Positions 50,095 through 64,000 of a stretch of DNA of 64,000 bases are shown here, piece by piece. How positions within the stretch are numbered: the first letter of the stretch is position 1; each line of letters begins with the position of its first letter. The stretch is taken from assembly GCA_022497155.1 (NCBI GenBank), contig MU385760.1, positions 62,001 to 126,000 on the forward strand. The letters run 5' to 3'. Origin of the DNA: Whalleya microplaca. Its lineage: Eukaryota; Ascomycota; Sordariomycetes; Xylariales; Xylariaceae. Made by a program: the position numbers and the translations under genes. The notes below the pieces were generated by a model. The model saw only the letters and a list, made by a program, of their open reading frames with translations. It was not told the origin of the DNA and did no database searches.

Positions 50095-50545
50095 TTACCA
50101 TCCTCTACCGGCCATTTTCTGCTCAGGCTTCATGCTGTTGACACTGATGCCCACCATGGCCTCGCCGAGACCTTCACTGCACTCCGCAAGCACCTTCGCA
50201 TCTCGGAAGTGGGTTGTAGCCCTCACGATGGCCTTCGCTCTCTTCGCCGCATCGCCAGATTTGAAGATGCCACTGCCGACAAAGACGCCATCACAGCCTA
50301 ACTGCATCATGAGCGCCGCATCTGCCGGCGTCGCCACGCCACCCGCCGCGAAGTTGACCACAGGCAGGCGACCTAGCTCCGCGGTCTGCTTCAACAACGC
50401 AGCATCGCATTCGAACTCTCTCGCCAGGGCCCTGATGGCCAAGTCGCCACCCTCCTGCAGGGCGGCTTTCGCCCTCGCAATGTCGCGGTTGACGGTGCGC
50501 ATGTGCTTGACGGCCTCGACGACGTCGCCCGTGCCCGCCTCGCCC

Positions 50546-50580
<35 letters not shown>

Positions 50581-50677
50581 CCGCAGGGCCTCAGGCAGGT
50601 TCCGACAGCCGCAGACGAAGGGGATGTTATACCCGCTCTTCTCGACGTGGAAGGTGTCGTCGGCGGGCGTGAGCACC

Positions 50678-50711
<34 letters not shown>

Positions 50712-51060
50712 CGAGGATCTGGCACTCGACAAAGTGGCCGATGCGCGCCTTCGCCATGACGGGGATCGTCACGGCCTCCTGGATCTCCTTGATCTTGCCC
50801 GGGTCCGACATGCGCGCCACGCCGCCCTCGGCCCGGATGTCGGCCGGCACGCGCTCCAGGGCCATGACGGCGCAGGCGCCGGCGTCTTCGGCGATGCGCG
50901 CTTGCGCCGCGTCCGTCACGTCCATGATCACGCCGCCCTTGAGCATCTGCGCCAGTCCTGCCTTGACGACGAAGGAGGACTTAGCTGAGCCGGGGGCGGG
51001 CGTGCCATTGGCGGGTGCCAGGCCAGCGAGGTTGCTGTTGTTTGTGTCGTTGTTCCCCAT
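50095..51060 (-). CDS. PDX1: Pyridoxal 5'-phosphate synthase subunit PDX1 (PdxS/SNZ)
   Basis: A single exon of 321 residues. It contains the (beta/alpha)8 PdxS sequence: [101 protein letters not shown] and [12 protein letters not shown]1 joins ribose 5-phosphate, glyceraldehyde 3-phosphate and ammonia into pyridoxal phosphate; the lysines in the LKGGVIMD and MAKARIGH regions carry the intermediates. It works as a double hexameric ring with PDX2 feeding ammonia. The partner gene lies head-to-head 0.69 kb away. The N-terminal 30 residues (Asn/Ala/Gly-rich) are a usual fungal extension. Confidence 0.95.
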
Positions 51061-51746
51061 GGCTACGGGTGGCGGTTTTGATCGTCAAGCTTGGATGAAG
51101 GTTAATTGCACTAAACCGGTTGACTATTCTCTTCCTGGAAGATATTTATGTGAAGACGAAGGCCGTAACTAGCCGTAGTCTAAGTAGCAGGGGAACGAGG
51201 AGAGATATGAGAGATAGGAGAGATGTGATGTGTGTGATGATTAGTATGTCAGGGACATATCACATATGTAAGGACTCGGAACTATTTTCCTTGGGTGTAA
51301 CAAATCGCCTACATTTAAGGGTCCAGCCAGCCTGAATGATGTGGGTGACATTTTAAGATTTGTTCCAATGAGATATTTCCCCAGAATATTAGTCACTACT
51401 TTCATCCAAAGATTGACTAAGGAATTCTAGTAGTTGAAAATTTTCCTTGGGTAGGGCGCGACCTATGCCGAACTCTCGGGTACATGACGCAGACCGTCCC
51501 GCCGAACTCGGTACACTGATTTATCATAAAAGACACCGGCAAGCTTTCCGCGGGAACGCGGAAACAATCCAACACGGCAGAAAGGATATCAATACCGAGA
51601 AAAGCCGCCGGTGACTCAGAGAATTGTTCATCTGGATATTCCGCTCATTGTTGATCGGGTTGTATGGGAAGAGTCGAAGAGCGGCAAACACCAAGCTTTT
51701 GATGATTGAGTTGAGTTGAGGGTAATTAAATCTAGTGACAACGAAG
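51061..51746. promoter_or_regulatory. Shared promoter region of the divergent PDX1-PDX2 pair
   Basis: 686 bp between the two start codons, with no gene inside. A perfect TGACTCA (51,612-51,618) lies 129 bp before the PDX2 ATG. Yeast SNZ1/SNO1, the same pair in the same head-to-head arrangement, is driven by Gcn4 through such sites, so joint control by the Gcn4 homologue (CpcA/CPC1) is a fair inference. Confidence 0.6.
51612..51618. promoter_or_regulatory. TGACTCA, Gcn4/CpcA-type site
   Basis: Perfect palindromic bZIP site in the bidirectional promoter. A single 7-mer can occur by chance; position and the known regulation of the yeast pair raise its weight. Confidence 0.5.
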
Positions 51747-52632
51747 ATGATAACTGTTGGTGTCCTGGCGCTCCAGGGGGGCTTCTCAGAACATCTCAAC
51801 TCTCTACGAAAAGCAGCCGGACATATATCAACCGCATCGGCGTCAGTCTCCTGTTCAGACCTCTTCCACTTCGTAGAGGTGCGAACACCGGAGCAGTTGG
51901 CTACTTGCGACGCCTTGGTGATTCCTGGAGGAGAGAGCACTACTCTGTCATTGGTCGCAGCGCAGTCCGACTTATTGGAACCATTGCGAGAATTCGTCAA
52001 GTAGGTATACCATGTGTTTAATTCACTTAGTTTTACTCGCTAACTCTGTCGATGTGATCAGAGTTGCCAAGAAACCGACCTGGGGCACATGTGCTGGCCT
52101 CATTCTGCTGTCTGAGGAGGCGAGCGCTACCAAGAGAGGAGGACAGGAGCTGATCGGGGGACTTGACGTGAAGGTTCATCGCAACCATTTTGGTCGACAG
52201 AGAGAAAGCTTCGTGACAGACCTAGACTTGCCCTTTCTATCCCAGGGAGGCAACAACGAAGTTCAAGCTCAAGCTCTTCCTTTCCCGGCCGTCTTCATTC
52301 GAGCTCCTGTTGTTGACCAGATGTTGACTGACGATGTTGAATCGATCGACGGAAAGTTGTCAAGCGAAGGACTCTCAGAACCCGGTCCTAAGGCCCAAAC
52401 ACAACAGATTAAGGGGAAGATCGAGGTGTTGGCAGTGCTTCCGGGGCGTCACGCCTCGAACAAGGCAGCGATTGGAGATGCTCAACCTGTGGCTTCCAAG
52501 GGGGCAGGAGATATTGTGGCATTACGGCAAGGCAATGTCTTCGGTACGAGTTTCCATCCAGAGTTGACTGATGATATTCGAATACATGCTTGGTGGTTAG
52601 ACCAGGTAGTAGCAGAGTGGTGTAATAAGTAA
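51747..52632 (+). CDS. PDX2: Pyridoxal 5'-phosphate synthase glutaminase subunit PDX2 (PdxT/SNO)
   Basis: Exons 51,747-52,000 and 52,062-52,632 (61-nt intron); 274 residues. It is a class I glutamine amidotransferase: start MITVGVLALQGGFSEH, VIPGGESTT with the conserved PGGES, the nucleophile Cys in WGTCAGLILLSEE, and the His-Glu pair in TSFHPELTDD. It releases ammonia from glutamine and passes it to PDX1. An insertion of about 60 residues (after PVVDQML, with DVESIDGKLSSEGLSEPGPK) distinguishes it from the roughly 200-residue bacterial PdxT and is common in fungal homologues. The ATG at 51,747 is chosen because the catalytic-domain strand begins directly there. Confidence 0.94.
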
Positions 52633-53584: not shown

Positions 53585-55034
53585 ATGGGAAAGAAAAAGG
53601 TCTTAGTTGGGTGAGTCTCAAATCAAGTTGTATGTGTGCTAGAATGTCCTCCGACTAATGCGAGGAGGTGATGATAGCTACGGTGTAGACATTGATGCTG
53701 TTGCTGGCTGGCTCGGCTCCTACGGAGGCGAAGACAGTACAAGCGATATTAGTAGAGGTTAGACTTTCTTGATGAGAAGGGACTAGAGATTCCCCCTATC
53801 CAGCTACGCATTTGGCTAATCGATAGTCACTACGGCCAGGTCTCTGGGCCGGCACAATTGGAACCCGTCGTTTGCTCAAACTGTTCGAGAAATACAACAT
53901 TAAAGCTTCATGGTTCATCCCTGGCCATTCCCTCGAGACTTTCCCCGAAGAGTGTGCCATGGTGAGAGACGCTGGTCACGAGATAGGCCTCCATGGGTAT
54001 TCACACGAGAATCCCGTAGATATGACATTTGAACAGCAGCGGGACGTCCTTGACAAGACTTTCAGAATGCTCACTGAATTTTGCGGCAAGCCTCCAAGAG
54101 GTAGCGTAGCGCCGTGGTGGGAGACAAGTAAGGAAGGCACAGAACTCATGCTCTCTTACGGCATTGAATATGATCATTCTATGTCTCATGAGGACTGCCA
54201 GATGTATTGGCTACGAACTGGCGATACATGGACAAAGGCAAGTATAACCATGTCACCCATTCATTATATAGCAAGTCTACAAATAATTGCTAACATGCCC
54301 GCAGTATGCCATACCCTTTAAGCTCCTCTTTAGTATCAACATGAAGCATGGTGTTTCTGTACATAGATATTAATCAGAATATGACAGGATTGACTACTCG
54401 AAGAAGGCCGAAGAGTGGATGAAGCCGTTGGTCAAGGGCCAGCCGACTGGGATGGTAGAGATCCCAGGTTCGTGGTATATCGATGACCTGCCACCCATGA
54501 TGTTCATGAAGAAGTCGGCCAATTCCCATGGTTGGGTTAACCCGAGGTACGCAGACGTGTTGATATTTCCATTGGACATATAAGCGCTAATAATGGCCAG
54601 AGATGTCGAAGACATTTGGCGTGACCACTTTGATTACTTCTAGTAAGTGGCGGGCCCTGCCGCCGATTGCAAGGTTTAGGGTATGCCTACTAATCGAAAT
54701 ATAGTCGAGAGTACGATGAATTTATTTTCCCAATGACGATCCATCCTGACGTCTCGGGAAGACCACACGTTCTTTTCATGCATGAAAGGTATGCTATCCC
54801 GCATCGGAGACACATTCCCTATGCTCATCCAGAAGCAGGTTGATTGAGCACATTAACAAGCATGAAGGTGTGGAGTGGATGACGATGGGCGAGGTGAGTC
54901 CAATCAGGAAAGAAAGGAGGTACTGTTACTAATCTGTGTAGATGTGCGACTACTTCAAGAGCAAGAATAAACCTCCAGAGGGGGCCATGATGCCCGCGCC
55001 ACCAGGAGATATCCTTAAAAAGGGGAAAGACTAG
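53585..55034 (+). CDS. hxnM: Polysaccharide-deacetylase-family cyclic imidase, HxnM-like (one splice join unresolved)
   Basis: Exons 53,585-53,610, 53,678-53,757, 53,840-54,239, about 54,388-54,546, 54,601-54,642, 54,705-54,788, 54,839-54,893 and 54,942-55,034. The NodB-type fold is clear: Asp13-x-Asp15 ([11 protein letters not shown]), His87-x3-His91 ([10 protein letters not shown]), later [11 protein letters not shown] and [13 protein letters not shown]. This subgroup (PuuE/PgdA-like) includes bacterial cyclic imidases and, as I recall, A. nidulans HxnM, which opens 3-hydroxypiperidine-2,6-dione to alpha-hydroxyglutaramate in nicotinate breakdown. Zinc-dependent, cytosolic (no signal peptide). 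Oddity: after GDTWTK the only good donor is GC (AAG|GCAAGT), and joining it to the AG before ATTGACTAC shifts frame by one base; see findings. It is tail to tail with the amidase gene (250 bp). Confidence 0.75.
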
Positions 55035-55284
55035 TAGGACGAGCTCATCTCAGTCGGCCATTGAGTGCTCTCATGTCATAAAGGCAATGGGCTAGGGAGA
55101 AGGCAGAACAAGAGTTCATAGCTAAGGATGTATTCGCGGTCTTCCCTGGTGATAGATACATCGTGGAGAATATAGCACAGGTTGGCCTATGATGCGTTCT
55201 TCAAACGTGTGTGTCGCCGAATTAGATATCAACTCCTGATCCCTTATTCTTCGATAACCGCTATGCAATGAATCCGGAAATGTT

Positions 55285-57300
55285 CTATCTAAGCAATTCA
55301 TCGATCACAGAACCAATCGCTAATACTTTCTCTTCTTCGAGCTTCCTTCCCACAACCTGTATTCCGACAGGTAGGCCTAGCTCAATCATCTTTTCCTTGT
55401 TCTGTCTCCATAATCCCGAATTCCACTCATCGATGGCATTCCTCGGTGTAGGATCCCAGGGTGCTTCCCTGTCGATGGCAGTCACTTTACCAGCAGGAAC
55501 CACCAGGGCTGGGTAATCTAGGACGTTCCATATCTTGGTGTATCCTACCCACCGACAAGACCGATGCGGGACAGCAGTGTGGGACATGACGGGCATCAAC
55601 ACGACATCAACCTGCTTGCCGGTTGTCGACGAACGGATTTCATTCCATTTCTTCAGGTACGCCTGCTGAAGTGCTACTTTACGTCTGTTTAGCTGCCAGT
55701 AATCATAGACTGAGATAGGTTGCCCCCGATTTACTAGCGCTTCGACGTGAGGTATAAAAGGTTCTCCACCTGCCAGAACATCACGGCGGATATCTTCGCC
55801 GCCGTCGGCAGTGTAATACTGATCCTAAGCCAGAAACGTCAGACTCGGAAGATACTGGCCACGAAATGATTGCCTTACCATTACCTGGATGCATTCAGCA
55901 TGGAGGTCGGCATTCCATTCAGCAATGTCATGACCAGCGGCTTTAAGCTTTTCAACTAAAGAGAGTAGCACTCGCTTCACAGGGGGGTGGGGTTGGACCA
56001 CCCCATCATCAACCAGAAGGCCAAAAGTTAACGGCTTGGACTTAAAGTCTTGATAAACCTCGTCTCTCCACGGCACCGGATTGCAGCGTGCATCATATTC
56101 CCAGGGGTTCAATTTGATAAGCTCCTTTAATGTCAATGTCAGCGAGGGAAGATTCCTTGCTAGTGGTCCGACAGATGAAGGGACATGTTCTTGTCCTTCT
56201 GTAGACACGGGTACACCATAGTAAGGAAGACGCGAACTCTGCGATCACGGACTTTAGTTAGACACACAGGCCGTGGAGAGCATAGCAAGTCAATCTCACG
56301 CTGGGCTTAAATCCGTAGAGTCCGATCATATGCGCCGGAATTCGTATGCTCCCGCCAATATCCGTCCCCCAACCTAGGAGACTGCCGTGAAGATGCAAGA
56401 GGGCCGCTTCGCCCCCAGTTGAACCTCCCGGAGTGTAATCCTTAGATGAAGGGTTCGTGGTTAGTCCCCATAGCGGGGTCTCCGTCTCGCACCACTGAGA
56501 GCCTTGTCAGATGCTTCCAATTCCTGAGCAAACATATTTACTTACCATTATGCTCTGTGGCAGATTCGTCTTGGCGAGGACAACAGCGCCGAGCTTCTTC
56601 AGCATACCAACCAAGACGGCATCTTCGGTCGCGGGCTTAAACGAGCGCCCGACATACCCTAGTGTGGTGTCGTGGCCTTTCACATTGAACTGGTCTTTGA
56701 GCGTGATGGGTATGCCATGCAATGGTCCGGCTACCTTTCCGTGCTCGGATTTATAGCGATCAAGCTCGCGCGCCTGAGCCAGAGCATCCTGAAAGAGGAT
56801 TTCCGTGAGACTATCACAGGTGTTGGTCGGCAGCCTAAACAAGGTTTAACAAGGTGCTTACCAGTTCGTCTACGATTTTACATAATCAGTGGCTTGTTGC
56901 TTTTAATCAAGGATGAGCCAGTAAATTTACCTGACTGTGCGCAGCTACAGCCCTATGATGGGATGAGTTAGCTATTGGCTATAGACACCATCTCGGGCTT
57001 TGAATTTGCGATTTACTTGTGTATGTACGCTTTTGTCACAGCCTCCGCACTAAGTTCATTAGAGGCGATGAGCCTGGCTAAAGTCGCAACATCGTCAATA
57101 TCTGTCACCACAGACGCATCAGGCGATGATGGAAGCTGACATTCCAAATCTCAGCATCAAGGTCTCCAGCTGGCAATGGTTTAACCATTCGTATGATTGC
57201 ATGCACGTACACTTTCATCCGCAGCAATAGCTAATGCGCGAGCCTGGGCTTCGCGCTTCAAACGAACCACCTCCTGCCATCCTTCTGGGGTTCCCGCCAT
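55285..57300 (-). CDS. hxnN: Amidase-signature family enzyme, HxnN-like
   Basis: Eight exons: 57,300-57,211; 57,135-57,017; 56,952-56,931; 56,869-56,862; 56,810-56,546; 56,494-56,300; 56,238-55,879; 55,824-55,285; 532 residues with frame closed exactly. The Ser-Ser-Lys triad is Lys118 (PITLKDQF), Ser193 (PGGSTGGEAALL) and Ser217 (GTDIGGSIRIP), with the same 75- and 24-residue spacing as in FAAH. The fourth exon has only 8 nt; it rebuilds the conserved AHSQTNCLTEIL text. Fungal acetamidase/FAAH-like enzymes hydrolyse small amides. Next to the cyclic imidase, the likely role is HxnN: alpha-hydroxyglutaramate to alpha-hydroxyglutarate plus ammonia. No signal peptide. Its promoter faces the HxnV-like gene. 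Confidence 0.82.
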
Positions 57301-58443
57301 TATGATAAGATGTTGTTAGGCTGTCAGGCAGGCTGTCAGGTTGTCAGGCTATTTTTTTGTTATTTTGCCTGGTCTGCCTGGTGTTTCATCAGCTGTTCGT
57401 TTCAATCGTTTCAATCAGGGTCCAGGAGTTCCAGTGTTATCTCAATAGCCAAGCTTAGCACGGCCCGAATTACAGTACAGAACGGAAGATCAACGCGCAA
57501 TTTATGGCTCAGGATTTCGGGATATGCTAGTATGGTACGGTAGTTGGTCGAGATTGCTGAGCCCGAGGATCCAGCAAAAGATCCAGCAAAAAGCTACTAG
57601 TAGTTACTTTACATACATAGATAGTACTTTACATAGTCGACACGCCGAACAACATAAGTAAGAGAAAGTAGAGACAAGAAGAAAAAAGACGGAGCCTTAT
57701 CGTGTAAGCACGAGTATCTTTATCCACTTGGTTCATCGGAAAGGGAAGTTAGCAAGCGGCACACTGTACAAGTGGTGTGATGTCTGACAGGGGTGGTCGC
57801 AGGAGTGGGAGTCTCAATTGTAGCAGCACTTGAGTATTATACTATGTAGTATGTACATCGCAGTTATTAGTCATGTAGGTGCTGGTACGGAGCAGGTAGT
57901 GAGTAAGGATGGGCTTAACGGGGCGTAACGGGCTCAGATGGGCTAAGATGGGTAAGGATGGGGGCGGTCCCAGAAGTCAGCGCCGTCCCCCAGCTGCCGC
58001 CTGATCGCCCAGGGTCTGAAGTACTTGGTATTATTATGTAGAGTCTGAGTAGGGTCTTCGTAGGGTCTGCGTCTAGAACGGCTATCCTAGGCAATCCTAG
58101 GCTATCCTAGATCGGAGTGGTTCGAGAAGCACGCCCGAACGCATGATAATGGCCTGAGCACAGTGCGACCGCCACCTCCATCCCTCCCACCGACCTACCC
58201 ACGTACCACGGAAGTAAGGCCATCCAGTCATCCCAAGTCACAGACGTGGACGATCGCTGTTTGCCGGTGAAACACGGTCAACGCGGCTCACTCAATCATC
58301 AATCAGGAGAAGGCAGACAACCTTCCACATTACTACTAAAACTGCCCTGGGACTGACCATATTCCGTTGTCTGACTGTTTACTTGAGTAACTCGACCTCA
58401 ATTCGGCTTTCCCTTTTCGCCTGCACGCCTGCACGCCCGCGCC
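57301..58443. promoter_or_regulatory. Shared upstream region of the HxnN-like and HxnV-like genes
   Basis: 1.14 kb between two divergent starts. It holds a GCTGTCAGG/GTTGTCAGG repeat (57,316-57,346), a G-rich repeat of GATGGG units (57,905-57,965) and CT-rich DNA near the HxnV start. No coding sequence. A common regulator binding here would co-regulate the two genes. Confidence 0.45.
57905..57965 (+). repeat. G-rich GATGGG-type repeat
   Basis: Six or more runs of three or more G separated by 5-8 bases (GGATGGG, CGGGGCG, ACGGGC, GATGGGC, GATGGGT, GATGGGGG). It could form a G-quadruplex, though the loops are at the long end. Confidence 0.5.
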
Positions 58444-60600
58444 ATGATTGTAGACGAGATCAACGGTGTGCGACAGAACGGCGACGCCAACGGTCGCGGG
58501 CCGGCCAAGCGGCGTGAAACGAATGGTTCACGACACAGCTCCGAGGTCTGCGTCATTGGCGCTGGCCCGGCCGGCTTGATGTGCGCGTGAGTAGAATGAA
58601 TGAATCTCTTATCCCCCGTATCCATCTCATGATGGAGTAATCGTCGATGCCCGACGCGCCGTTGCCATTTTTGTGCTAACCGCCAATGCAGTGTTCTGCT
58701 GGCCAGATTCGGCGTCAATGTCGAGGTTCTAGATGAACGGGCCGACCAGACACTGGCTGGTCGCGCCGACGGCTTACAGCCCAAGACGATAGAGACGCTG
58801 CGTCAACTTCGTCTTGCGGACGGCCTTTTAATGAGGGGCGCCAAGGTCTTTGACATTTGTTTCTGGGAAGCCACTGCAAACCGCCGATTAAGGCGCTTAG
58901 GCCGTGAAATTCACTATCCTGCATTGGTTGTTGACCTGCTAGATGACTACATTCTCCTCGTCCATCAGGGGGTAGTAGAGGGGGTGTTCTTAGATGATTT
59001 ACGAAAGCGGGGCGTCGAAGTGAAGCGAAGCCACCATTTTGTAAACTTCACGCAACGAGAGGATGAAGAGGGGTTGCTAGAGATTGAGTGCAAACATAGT
59101 ACCACAGAGGAGAAGGACGTGACGCTGTCTAAGTATATAGTAGGGTGTAAGTGCTAGACGACTTCGCGTATGGGGATTTTCCCACTGACTAACTTCATAT
59201 AAAGGTGACGGAGCGCGGTCTAAAGTACGGAACTGTATACCGGACACATATTCCGTAGGCAAGTCTCATGAGTCTGTATGGGCCGTGCTAGATGGAGAGC
59301 TCATCTCAGACTTCCCGGATCTTTGGTCTAAGACCGTTGTCTACAGTGAGCTACATGGGTCCATTCTCATCGTCCCGCGGGAGCGAGGCACAACCCGATT
59401 CTACGTCGAGATCAAGCCCGATACTGAGACTGGCAATTTGCGGTCACTTGGGCAGGAGTTCGTCATGCAGCGGGCCAGGCAGATCCTGGCCCCGTACTCG
59501 GTAGAGTGGCGTACGGTGGAGTGGTTCGGCAATTATCAAATCGGACAGCGAATCGCGAATAAGTTCACAGACCCGCACTTGCGAGCATTCATTGCCGGAG
59601 ATGCAAGCCATACGCATTCGCCCAAAGCGGCCCAGGGAATGAACACGAGCATGCACGACAGCTGGAATCTTGCATGGAAGCTGAACTTCGCAGTAAGGGG
59701 CTTGGCGAAGCCAATCCTACTTGAGTCCTATGAGATGGAACGCCGGAAGATCGCCCATGATCTCATCAACTTTGATTATGAGCACGCGAACCAAATCGCG
59801 GGTGGCGATGCGAGAGCGCTCGCTGAGAACTTCCGTACTAACGTCCGTTTCATTTCGGGAATTGGTGTTGAGTACGACCAGAACGCGCTGAACAACCCCA
59901 GTAAACGATACGGGGGAGAGTTAAGAGCAGGCTGTCTTGTGCCGCCTGCCAAGGTGACGCGCTATATCGACGCAAACCCGATCGACATTCAGCTGGATAT
60001 TCCCATGCTAGGTCAATTCAGGGTGTATTTCTTCGTGCCAGATATTCATAACAGCACACCGTTCCTCCAGACGTTCTGTCAGACGTTATCGAAACCAGAG
60101 TCCTTATTTACTAAACTAAGTCAAGCTGCTGCCACGAGCTATGCACAAAAACCACGTACCCCGACTGGCTCCGATGCCTATGTACGTCCAGAGAGATACA
60201 CGAGCGCCAGTGAACTAATGACTTTCGCTCTCATCAGTAAGTAAAGTCCTCAGGAACATATTGATAATAAACAACAAGATAGCTAACTCGGAGTTTTCAC
60301 ACAGCAACTATGGACAAAGCAAGAGTCGAGATCCAGGATCTCCCGCCACTCTTCGCTCGAAGTGCATGGACATTCTACTTAGACAACGTGCCGTACTTAG
60401 ACACCCGCAGGCAGGCATGTACAAGCAAGTGGGTAGGAACTCTGCAGAAGGATGAGGTGGCAATCGTGGTCTTACGGCCTGATGGCTATGTAGGGACAAT
60501 GAGTAGGTGGGACTCGCTTGGCGGAAACGCCGGTACCGTTGCTGCGGAGTGGCTCAACTCGTACTATGATGGGTTCCTTCAGGTTCCTGAGAGTAAATAA
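58444..60600 (+). CDS. hxnV: FAD monooxygenase of the phenol 2-monooxygenase family, HxnV-like
   Basis: Exons 58,444-58,586, 58,692-59,146, 59,205-60,236 and 60,305-60,600; 641 residues. FAD-binding Rossmann motif G39-A-G41-P-A-G44 (VCVIGAGPAGLMCA), the DG-type CDGARSKVR segment, and the second FAD motif G331-D332 (FIAGDASHTHSPKAAQGMN). The last third is the thioredoxin-like dimer domain of phenol hydroxylases (RVYFFVPD, VVLRPDGYVGTMSRWD). Such enzymes add a hydroxyl group to a phenol or pyridinol ring with NADPH and O2. In A. nidulans the like-built HxnV hydroxylates 2,5-dihydroxypyridine (to 2,3,6-trihydroxypyridine, as I recall). The neighbours make the same role here likely; alone, the sequence would only say phenolic-ring hydroxylase. 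Cytosolic. Confidence 0.82.
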
Positions 60601-61006
60601 TACTACCTAGATGATGAGGACAACCCGGATAGGAAGCGGACCTTAGTGGATGATAAACTCATGCATGGGATTCTTCAACGCATATTGGCAGGCCTGCGAT
60701 GGATTTGACATTTGGTAACCTTGTACCTCTGTATTTTCTGTTATTTCGCAGTTAGTCTTTCCCGGCGGTTTTCCTTGGTAGGATATATCAAGGCACACCC
60801 GCCTTAATGGTCCTAATGCCTACCCTACTCTACCGGTCAACATTCATCTACTCAATCGAGGTTCTAGCCCATTGAAGTGATGGATATGAGTGAAACCCGC
60901 TTGCGGGTTGTCTGCAAAAACATATACCGCATCAGTGTTACAGTTGAGGGAAGGGGGAAGATAATATCAATGTAGATAGCACAATGTTATCGATAGAGTT
61001 TTACTT
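60601..61006. other. Intergenic between convergent HxnV- and HxnX-like genes
   Basis: 0.4 kb, 3' flanks of two genes; no other feature seen. Confidence 0.5.
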
Positions 61007-62764
61007 TTACAACATTGGCTTTGTCTTTGCTTGTGCTCGGGTTTGCTCCCACCTGTTCTCTACATCCTGTATAACGTCGTACGTCAACAGCCAGCCACCG
61101 ACGCCATCGTACCTCCATGGTAAGGGGTCTTCTCCTGACTCTATCCGCGGCTCCAATATAGGGTTTGCCACTCCGAGTCTCTTTTCGTCAAGCTCTCCAA
61201 ATATCTTAAATCTCTCATCCCTTTTCCTCTGTTCTTCACCGTCATGGAGATGGTACAAGTATTGCTGGTAGTTGCCTCTCTCAACTACCTTTTCGGTCCT
61301 CTCTCTACGACAATCTTCATACATCTTTAGTGCTTGTAGCTTTTGTTCCCGAGACTTGCTGGTCAGCTTTGCGAGACAAAGGCCAAGCGCCGCTGCATCT
61401 TCTAAGGCCATGCCACAGCCACCTCATGAGAGAAGTTAGTGGACCAGATGAACGTCAAATAGGAGTCTCAAGCTCTCCTCATGGTATGAACCGCGGCAGG
61501 CTCGGATATAATGCAGCATCAGGGGAGACCTCAGGGTTTTCAGGAGTTGACTCACTGGCAAGGTATGGAAGGGTGGCATGTACACAATCACCCAAAAGCG
61601 TAAATGCACCTGATTCATGAGTCCATCGCTCAAGAGTCGGCCGAATGCAAAGCTTCCACTTCTGTACTGACTCGCAAAGACGTAGAAGTTTCCCTATTAT
61701 GGGATCCCAGTCTTTGTACAATGCTTGCATTTCTTGGACATTCCCGTCCACCGTCATAGCTGCCGCGGGCATGTCGTCCGGGACCAGCAAGACCATATTG
61801 AACAGCTCTCCGCCTCTGAGCACATAATTCACCGCATGCGCGTCTGGTCCCATCCAATAGTTAACTTGAGGATTCTGAATGAAATGTCGCAATTCAGGAT
61901 CAGCCAGCATGTCTTTCGCATTGATTAGCAATCTATACGCGAGGTCTCCCGTCGGCACCGGCGGATCCGGCTTCTTGAGGAGAACCTCGCGCAACCTAGA
62001 CGAAATACCATCTGCACCAACGATAAGATCTCCAGTCACAGTCCTGCCGTCGCTCAGTATCGCCGTCGCAGTGAGCCCATCTTGGGCGCATTCAATATTC
62101 GTCACTCTCGACCGGACTTGAACTACGGCTCCCAGCTCAAGCGCGCGATCCAGAAGGCAGCGATGCAAGTTGGCGCGATGGAAATCCCAAAATGGGGTCC
62201 CCAGGGCCTTTCCATAGGCTTGGAGGTCCATTCTCGACAATCGATTCCCTTTCCAGCCGATCATGTTACACCACCGTGGCATTGTCGCATGCTTGACGAG
62301 CTTGCCCTCCAGTCCCCAGGAAGTCAATATCCTCGAGGAATTGGGCAGAACCTGTATACCGGCACCGATTTCACCGATTTCGGATGCGCTCTCAAGCACA
62401 GTCACATTGTGTCCAGCTAGGAGAATGGATATTGCAGCACCAAGGCCACCAAGACCTATTACACATTCAGGAGTCAGCGAACCATCTATTAGGTGATATC
62501 CGAGGGCAATTTCGAGTACAATCAAAAGCACACACTGGGTGATCAACTCCAGTGTCACATCGCGGGAGTTGATTCCTCCCGAGACCGACTGGTCAGAAAA
62601 TAAATGACTCCGATTACTGACCTGCGCCTACAATGATAACCTAAAATTCAGTTTAATACCTTAATGCGCCAATGCTTTTATACATGTAAAGCCTTACTTA
62701 CATGTAGTTGACTCGGCGGGTCTCTTTTGATTCTCCGCTGCACTTCAGGGGGTGACCGAAGCAT
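61007..62764 (-). CDS. hxnX: FAD monooxygenase, 6-hydroxynicotinate/salicylate hydroxylase type, HxnX-like
   Basis: Exons 62,764-62,702, 62,640-62,622 (19 nt), 62,455-61,556 and 61,422-61,007; 465 residues with frame closed exactly. The first two introns restore the FAD motif VIIVGAGLGGLG (G26-A-G28-x2-G31), which an ATG inside the second intron would miss. Further marks: GADGISSRLRE (DG motif), GD at 316-317 (FTLLGDCVHATLPY) and GCGMALEDAAALG. This is the single-component group A flavin monooxygenase fold of salicylate hydroxylase and bacterial NicC, which turns 6-hydroxynicotinate into 2,5-dihydroxypyridine with loss of CO2. A. nidulans HxnX is built the same way and does this step. Convergent with the HxnV-like gene, divergent from the C2H2 regulator. 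Confidence 0.83.
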
Positions 62765-63565
62765 TTTGGGACGTGTTGCTATATTCGTCCTACAAGATGG
62801 CACACGATGACCTTAGCAAGACAAACGATGGGCACATATCATAATTTATATCACTACATCACAAGCAGTGGACTGCGTTGGCGGAGATAAAGAGAGGAGC
62901 TAAGAGAGACATGGCGTTTTGAGGCATTCAGAACCTTGGAACCTTTCCATAGGTATTCAATCAAGGGTATGCAGGCTCCCGTCATCACCACGTACCTAGA
63001 CCTATTATAGCAAACCTACACAGTGGAAGCTACGGACTGTATGTCAGGTTGCTGCTTGTTTTACATCCGAAGAATACTGCCGGGCTATCTGCAGCCAGTG
63101 CGACTGATAGGAGGTGATTGCAACCCCGCCCACTCTTGCAGACGCGAACACACACATATACAAGGCAGCCAAGGGTGGGGGTCAGAGAAAAGGCCCCGAA
63201 CACAATAGATCGGAACCTAAGTACTTAGCATTGCTTTCAACACACTTCCCCAGTTCCCACACTGGGCACATTCGCAGTCCGCCTTCCCGAATACCAAATC
63301 GTCTGACTAGCTGACTGATTGACCACTGTGCGTTGTGCTCCCTTGGCGCGAACTTGTGAGTGGGAGGAATATTGAGATTTGACAACGACAACACACCGGA
63401 CTATCACACACAACCCTGTTATGCTCATGCGGTAACACGCCCTCTAGTCGCGAAGTCTCTCGTAATAGAATGGGGGCTAGCCATTGTTCAGGAGACTCCA
63501 CATGATCTGCTTTCTCAAGGTGGTGGACAAAAGGTAGGTACTTTATTACGATTAGACCAGCCGAG
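62765..63565. promoter_or_regulatory. Shared upstream region of the HxnX-like and HxnR-like genes
   Basis: 0.8 kb between divergent starts, without a supported gene. A regulator gene sharing its promoter with a structural pathway gene fits pathway-specific control. I could not single out a binding motif. Confidence 0.4.
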
Positions 63566-64000
63566 ATGCAGCCATCCAAGCGAAGATCCCGGGATGCTGG
63601 AGTCCCTAGACGAGTGTTTACTTGTTCCCATGAGGGATGTGGGAGGTCCTTTTCGCGATCTGAGCACCTTCATCGTCACCAGAAGAACCACACCGACGGT
63701 GATGCAACTTGCCCACGATGCCGTGCTCATTTCAAGCGCCAGGACCTTCTTGGTGAGCTCCTGTTCTCCTGCAGACGGTGTGCCGCCTCCGCCTGACATT
63801 ATAGTGCAGATAGGCATATGAAACGCCATCAACAGAGGGATGAAGAAGCTGGCGGTGAGGGCAACGGTATACTAAATACTCGAAAACGTATGTGGAAGGA
63901 TGACAATGGGAAGATAGTCCGCAAAAAGCCGGCAGACTCTAACGGCGCAAGCTATTCCCCAATCCTCGTGCAGGCAGACGAGCCTATCTCACCACCGGTA
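63566..64000 (+). CDS. hxnR: C2H2 zinc-finger transcription factor, HxnR-like (partial at right edge)
   Basis: Exons 63,566-63,752 and 63,810 to the window end (57-nt intron); 126 residues visible. After a basic start (MQPSKRRSRDAGVPRR) come two C2H2 fingers: C-x4-C-x12-H-x3-H (CSHEGC...HQKNH) and C-x2-C-x12-H-x3-H (CPRC...HMKRH). The intron splits the second finger after RQDLL. Next is the stretch EEAGGEGNGILNTRKRMWKD, which I know from fungal regulators with two N-terminal fingers and a distal fungal-specific domain. HxnR, the activator of nicotinate genes in A. nidulans, is of this type. Other members of the class exist, so the name rests mainly on position next to four hxn-like enzyme genes. 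The rest lies outside the window. Confidence 0.7.

Follow-up and report, generated by a model that had tools for sequence, protein, structure and literature searches.

The nicotinate-utilization (hxn) regulon of Aspergillus nidulans comprises 11 genes in three clusters (PMC5746545, PMC8478523, PMC9304392). Single clusters of 11 genes are also known from other Pezizomycotina, such as the one-contig block of Cyphellophora europaea, and hxnM and hxnN are described as cluster members outside most of Aspergillus, with hxnN/hxnV and hxnT/hxnS as conserved couples (PMC8478523). Clustering of hxnR with hxnS is reported to be commonly absent in Sordariomycetes, Xylariales excepted (PMC5746545). Here, we describe a stretch of 64,000 nucleotides from Whalleya microplaca (Sordariomycetes, Xylariales, Xylariaceae; GenBank assembly GCA_022497155.1, contig MU385760.1, positions 62,001 to 126,000), which is referred to as a whole as the window. 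Across its right-hand end lies a seven-gene block of approximately 21.5 kb in the order hxnM-N-V-X-R-T-S, which is very probably the hxn cluster of this species, with an hxnM that would be made functional by the two-step removal of a nested intron. The first-pass annotation of the window had considered a one-block arrangement to be notable; a single block was indeed found, but its kind has already been published (PMC8478523, PMC5746545), and the published single-block clusters and the hxnR-hxnS linkage of Xylariales make the W. microplaca cluster ordinary in kind. The new details are an hxnW that was not found in the cluster, the putative stwintron of hxnM, and the tail of HxnX.

The genome consists of 48.1 Mb in 114 contigs, and the contig carrying the window (C51) is 396,427 bases long. 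Gene models were spliced by hand from the DNA, and window coordinates were continued rightward past 64,000; the span covered was 104 kb. The window edge cuts the block. Four genes lie inside it: hxnM (53585..55034, plus strand; predicted cyclic-imide hydrolase of the CE4 HpPgdA-like type, PF01522, 311 amino acids with stwintron splicing), hxnN (55285..57300, minus strand; amidase, 532 amino acids, 8 exons), hxnV (58444..60600, plus strand; phenol-hydroxylase-type flavoprotein, 641 amino acids, 4 exons), and hxnX (61007..62764, minus strand; 6-hydroxynicotinate monooxygenase-type flavoprotein, 465 amino acids). The regulator gene hxnR (63566..66497, plus strand; C2H2 and Fungal_trans domains, 887 amino acids) runs over the window end at 64000 by 2,497 bases, while hxnT (67719..69088, minus strand) and hxnS (69988..75074, plus strand) lie entirely to the right, in extended coordinates. 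Candidate divergent promoter regions are shared by hxnN and hxnV (57301..58443), a published conserved couple (PMC8478523), and by hxnX and hxnR (62765..63565).

The five adjacent genes named in the first-pass annotation are all present with full frames, and Pfam agrees with their families (Polysacc_deac_1 in HxnM, Amidase in HxnN, FAD_binding_3 and Phe_hydrox_dim in HxnV, FAD_binding_3 in HxnX, and C2H2 and Fungal_trans in HxnR); HxnT likewise agrees with its named family. After splicing, open frames are obtained in all seven genes, hxnM needing either stwintron splicing or a five-residue insert. HxnX and HxnR, the two models checked against a database copy of the same genome, correspond to database proteins of the same length with 100% identity and coverage, the HxnX twin being a W. 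microplaca record. The alternating plus and minus orientation also claimed for the five genes was borne out and carries on through hxnT and hxnS. However, unbroken alternation has, on its own, a chance of about 1 in 64 for seven genes (1 in 16 for five), and the strength of the cluster call therefore lies in gene content rather than in orientation.

A diagnostic motif is found in HxnS. The published contrast is between FATAL-H in HxnS and FTAL in the xanthine dehydrogenase (HxA) paralogue (PMC5746545), and HxnS of W. microplaca, which matches xanthine dehydrogenases along most of its length, carries FATALH, with the Ala insertion that gives FATAL and the additional His. The only other matching place in the genome, a paralogue on contig C5 that is 45–63% identical in three pieces, reads FTALW. 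For hxnR, three matches (P0070–P0072) are annotated as a nicotinate catabolism cluster-specific transcription factor, and the next two long matches in the genome itself are only 30–32% identical. Relatives of HxnR, HxnX, and HxnM were compared as the best 120 of 465, 1137, and 7988 proteins, respectively, in which the quality of individual gene models is uneven. Ahead of PF04082, HxnR has the aromatic patch Y-x-[WF]-L-F, which 118 of the best 120 relatives also show; its correspondence to A. nidulans residues 226 and 228 is one of pattern rather than of alignment. Linkage of hxnR and hxnX recurs: judged by equal size of the longest contig per entry, HxnR and HxnX relatives apparently share a contig in 42 cases among the 120 of each (own genome counted), and locus tags are adjacent in Hypoxylon texense (Hte_001393/001394), Parahypoxylon ruwenzoriense (AAE478_001302/001303), Stylonectria norvegica (g400/g401), and Diaporthe amygdali (006872/006873).

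HxnV, HxnN, and HxnT are placed by family and position. HxnV is a phenol-hydroxylase-type enzyme, and its next-best match in the genome is 37% identical over residues 32–635. In HxnN, the intact K-S-S triad of the first-pass annotation was located as Lys118-Ser193-Ser217, aligned with the catalytic residues of fatty-acid amide hydrolases. The His-x-x-Asn motif typical of old yellow enzymes, with residues as given in PMC9304392, is conserved in HxnT. Taken together, the genes look like hxn orthologues, and this is likely for all seven.

When compared with the A. nidulans regulon, the W. microplaca cluster shares the divergent hxnT/hxnS pair, the HxnS signature, and the regulator architecture, while differing in forming one block rather than three, in an HxnX without the SRL tail, and in that hxnW, hxnY, hxnP, and hxnZ were not found in the block; the putative stwintron in hxnM is a feature described here for the W. 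microplaca side of the comparison. As in the block of the C. europaea type (PMC8478523), hxnM and hxnN lie inside the cluster and both divergent couples, hxnN/hxnV and hxnT/hxnS, are kept. In contrast to that block, seven genes were found, strand alternation is strict, vitamin B6 genes stand at the border, and the couples hxnM/hxnW and hxnP/hxnY are not present, the upstream neighbor of hxnM being SNO. These latter two couples are mostly conserved but vary among published clusters, and are thus not taken as defining. The vitamin B6 synthase pair SNZ (minus strand) and SNO (plus strand), at window positions 50095–52632, adjoins hxnM on the left, 952 bases from its start codon, and occupies the side on which other fungi pair hxnW with hxnM.

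Several observations weigh against reading the locus as an hxn cluster. In HxnR, PF04082 and one C2H2 finger pass the Pfam cut-off, but the second finger falls below it, with a readable Cys/His pattern. Predicted regulatory sites are uneven across the 24 tests made: HxnR-like GHGGGG sites number 5 upstream of hxnM (1.0 expected) and 3 in the hxnT-hxnS gap (0.6 expected), but they are absent between hxnN and hxnV (0 against 1.6 expected) and near chance between hxnX and hxnR (2 against 1.0). AreA-like HGATAR sites number 9 before hxnM (4.1 expected), but their strongest excess by P value falls in the convergent hxnV-hxnX gap (5 against 1.5), which is no promoter. As such, the excess of predicted HxnR and AreA sites supports such regulation weakly. 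Two features of HxnX, its closest solved relatives and its tail, count on the same side and are taken up below.

A further point of this kind is the set of genes not found. The 104 kb covered yielded no gene resembling hxnW, hxnY, hxnP, or hxnZ, although genes split into exons could escape. Six query frames of short-chain dehydrogenases/reductases (SDR, hxnW-like) from the same genome, the usable ones from 16 SDR loci, gave no tblastn match in the 104 kb; genome-wide, scoring covered 18 of 279 first-look SDR candidates. For the hxnY-type family PF03171, all 26 candidates were scored and none matched on contig C51. Among 302 frames of at least 80 amino acids screened for at least three membrane-like stretches, those that passed were the two frames of a sugar transporter and two that run antisense to other genes; this sugar transporter is the only transporter-like gene in the 104 kb, with the limit that a gene split into short exons could escape. 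Pfam was run on 14 flanking frames, and the others were read by eye. Reading to the right of the window, as the first-pass annotation had suggested, thus yielded hxnT and hxnS but not hxnW, hxnP, or hxnZ. A possible second hxn cluster on contig C17, where a 2-oxoglutarate (2OG) dioxygenase and an SDR lie close together, was rejected, as this 30 kb looks to be of polyketide-synthase type. Read by eye, C17:56001–86000 seems to hold a polyketide-synthase cluster with the 2OG-dioxygenase, the SDR, a P450, an MFS transporter, a GMC oxidoreductase, and a Zn2Cys6 regulator.

Accordingly, two earlier claims lack support in their stated form: a complete route from 6-hydroxynicotinate to alpha-hydroxyglutarate in one cluster, as hxnW was not found in it, and a complete cluster, as seven of the eleven known hxn genes were found. 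The proposal that the lower pathway and its regulator are clustered holds in that both are present, but is too narrow, as hxnS, for the first step, and hxnT are included. The absence of upper-pathway genes from the genome, raised as a reason to abandon an hxn assignment, does not apply with hxnS next door. It could still be argued that the cluster is decaying and that, lacking hxnW and transporters, it permits no growth on nicotinate or only partial detoxification. The seven-of-eleven count in the 104 kb agrees with this, and PMC8478523 describes several cases of hxn gene loss in Ascomycota. However, all seven genes, hxnR included, have full frames, HxnM and HxnX are 93% and 84% identical to the proteins of Xylariaceae sp. 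FL0662B, and loss of hxnP or hxnZ in A. nidulans is reported to impair but not abolish the use of pathway compounds (PMC9304392). We therefore regard decay as unlikely, although it is the alternative that survives best, and retain the reading of a functional hxn cluster.

The identity of hxnM bears on both the pathway and its unusual intron. The structure, paralogue, relative, and junction searches were made with an alternative 316-amino-acid GT-AG model, the stwintron model having been adopted later; the best solved relative was 3qbu. The genome also contains an unlinked paralogue at C4:971801–973000 (80% identical across residues 31–269) and a remoter one at C3:375189–376334 (38–55% identical in pieces). 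Trees with paralogues had been proposed in the first-pass annotation, and the one run, for HxnM, separates the copies. In this quick tree of 122 entries (midpoint root, with the Shimodaira-Hasegawa-like approximate likelihood ratio test, SH-aLRT, as its only support measure), HxnM falls with the 10 linked entries and ATEG_05673 of A. terreus within one group of 61 (SH-aLRT 86), and the C4 paralogue falls in a separate group of 40 (SH-aLRT 86), although the linked entries by themselves do not form a single clade. ATEG_05673 is the deacetylase of an A. terreus nicotinate cluster and has been assigned to nicotinate metabolism (PMC7842363). Contigs of HxnR or HxnX relatives carry 9 of the best 120 HxnM relatives, a count that excludes one further match between two entries without a contig size.

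No single canonical intron is able to join WTK to IDY in hxnM. Intron 3 (54237..54387, plus strand) instead reads as a putative [D1,2] stwintron that would restore the conserved protein. It is composed of G54237, an internal GC-AG intron at 54238–54304 (67 nt, with a GCTAAC branch-like site), and an external remainder at 54305–54387. Removal of the internal intron would rebuild the donor G-TATGCC and the second removal would yield WTKIDYS; donor, branch, and acceptor appear usable for both predicted introns. The published [D1,2] stwintrons start with 5'-GGU, occasionally GGC, and are overlooked by annotation software (PMC9024468). The predicted hxnM intron resembles those of Hypoxylaceae and Xylariaceae (PMC9024468, PMC12403724) in the external 5' donor split after the first G, in the 5'-GGC start, and in the two U2-type introns of usual size with branch-like motifs in both, but differs in an internal donor of the rare GC type. 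With GC internal donors permitted, the search motif published in PMC9024468 has a single match over both strands of the 104 kb, at 54237. In shuffled sequence of the same length, chance matches average 0.46 with a maximum of 3 for all GC donors (50 shuffles of two-base blocks) and 0.05 for the GCAAGT donor alone (20 shuffles). The GC form was admitted only after the site had been seen, and weight is thus placed on where precisely the match falls and on the protein that it restores. Matches to the GT-donor motif at 54546 (plus strand) and 62622 (minus strand) are explained by plain introns, with approximately 0.9 per 104 kb expected by chance (20 shuffles). A second GC-AG intron of the cluster, intron 10 of hxnS (extended coordinates 74690–74745), has the GCAAGT donor. 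Among the papers searched, none treated stwintrons and nicotinate together, and the main texts of three stwintron papers make no mention of hxn genes, deacetylases, nicotinate, or Whalleya, although listing in their supplementary tables is possible.

Alternatively, hxnM intron 3 may not be a stwintron, and the gene would then carry either a five-residue insert, AKYDR, or a frameshift. A plain GT-AG splice (54242–54377) keeps the frame with the insert, a single GC-AG splice (54238–54387) would shift it, and the splicing reading rests on sequence, with a donor picked post hoc for a motif that has the chance rate given above. This alternative is improbable, slightly more so than decay of the cluster. 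The insert would interrupt WTKIDY, which is read exactly in 98 of the best 120 HxnM relatives and likewise in the C4 paralogue; under a looser pattern, 102 of the 120 lack an insert, 3 have one, and 15 do not fit. Moreover, the sole motif match falls at precisely the position that the frame requires, and outside the junction HxnM is 93% identical to its nearest relative. Four of the five other members of the same clade show odd, mutually different inserts at the junction (P0247 has none), and that of FL0662B begins with ASITM, the encoding of the first 15 bases of the internal intron. Such inserts may be expected where gene finders meet an unrecognized stwintron. An initial hxnM model that included a middle exon lost the open frame, and the GT-AG model with its five-residue insert has been superseded by the stwintron model.

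Among solved structures, HxnX is matched best by 4-hydroxybenzoate and vanillate 1-hydroxylases (8gsm, 343 bits; 8x38, 299 bits) and not by NicC, two entries of which score 162 and 160 bits. A His234/Tyr238 pair is present, but the pattern also occurs in the 1-hydroxylases and is not discriminating. These scores, together with the tail described below, would fit a 4-hydroxybenzoate/vanillate 1-hydroxylase, of the MNX1 type, in a block degrading phenolic acids, but this is very improbable given that 42 HxnX relatives (itself included) lie on contigs matching an HxnR relative, that PYLASGxGMxxED is found in 117 of the best 120 (60–100% identical), against PYLAQG or PYRAQG in the three solved hydroxylases that were aligned, and that hxnX is placed between hxnV and hxnR, close to an HxnS bearing the signature for nicotinate.

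The HxnX reading being kept, its C-terminus, encoded with its end at 61007–61020, is KPML, without a canonical peroxisomal targeting signal type 1 (PTS1). A canonical PTS1 (SRL) on HxnX is reported as conserved in other Pezizomycotina (PMC9304392). Among the best 120 relatives, however, a canonical [SAC][KRH][LM] tail occurs in 6 (ARL 3, SRL 1, SKL 1, AHL 1), and the commonest ends are ASL (24), AVL (16), PLL (8), and ANL (8), often following Arg, although some entries may carry wrong C-terminal ends. It is possible that HxnX uses a non-canonical peroxisomal import signal. As the R-linked HxnX of many species also lacks PTS1, the signal is not taken as family-defining.

By homology with A. nidulans, the cluster would break nicotinate down as follows. 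HxnS would convert nicotinate to 6-hydroxynicotinate, HxnX would yield 2,5-dihydroxypyridine, and HxnV would yield 2,3,6-trihydroxypyridine, a compound that was inferred rather than detected in A. nidulans (PMC9304392). HxnT may then reduce the ring. The HxnW step to the imide, which in the published pathway lies between HxnT and HxnM (PMC9304392), would be supplied from outside the cluster, as would the transporters. HxnM, functional after the two-step removal of its nested intron, would open the cyclic imide, and HxnN would release ammonium, leaving alpha-hydroxyglutarate, with all clustered enzymes under the control of HxnR. Six of the seven pathway enzymes are clustered with the regulator. 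More tentatively, and with more doubt than belief, the pathway of this lineage may have been rebuilt as a seven-gene core, in which HxnM can be produced only if an inherited stwintron is spliced out in two steps, HxnX acts outside the peroxisome or is non-canonically imported, and an unlinked dehydrogenase performs the HxnW step.

The W. microplaca locus adds a well-resolved Xylariales case to the published account of hxn cluster reshuffling, with the first pathway gene near the five-gene block. The published conservation of the HxnX peroxisomal tail fails in most of the relatives listed, and in some related fungi one splice junction of hxnM seems to have been annotated wrongly by automatic methods.

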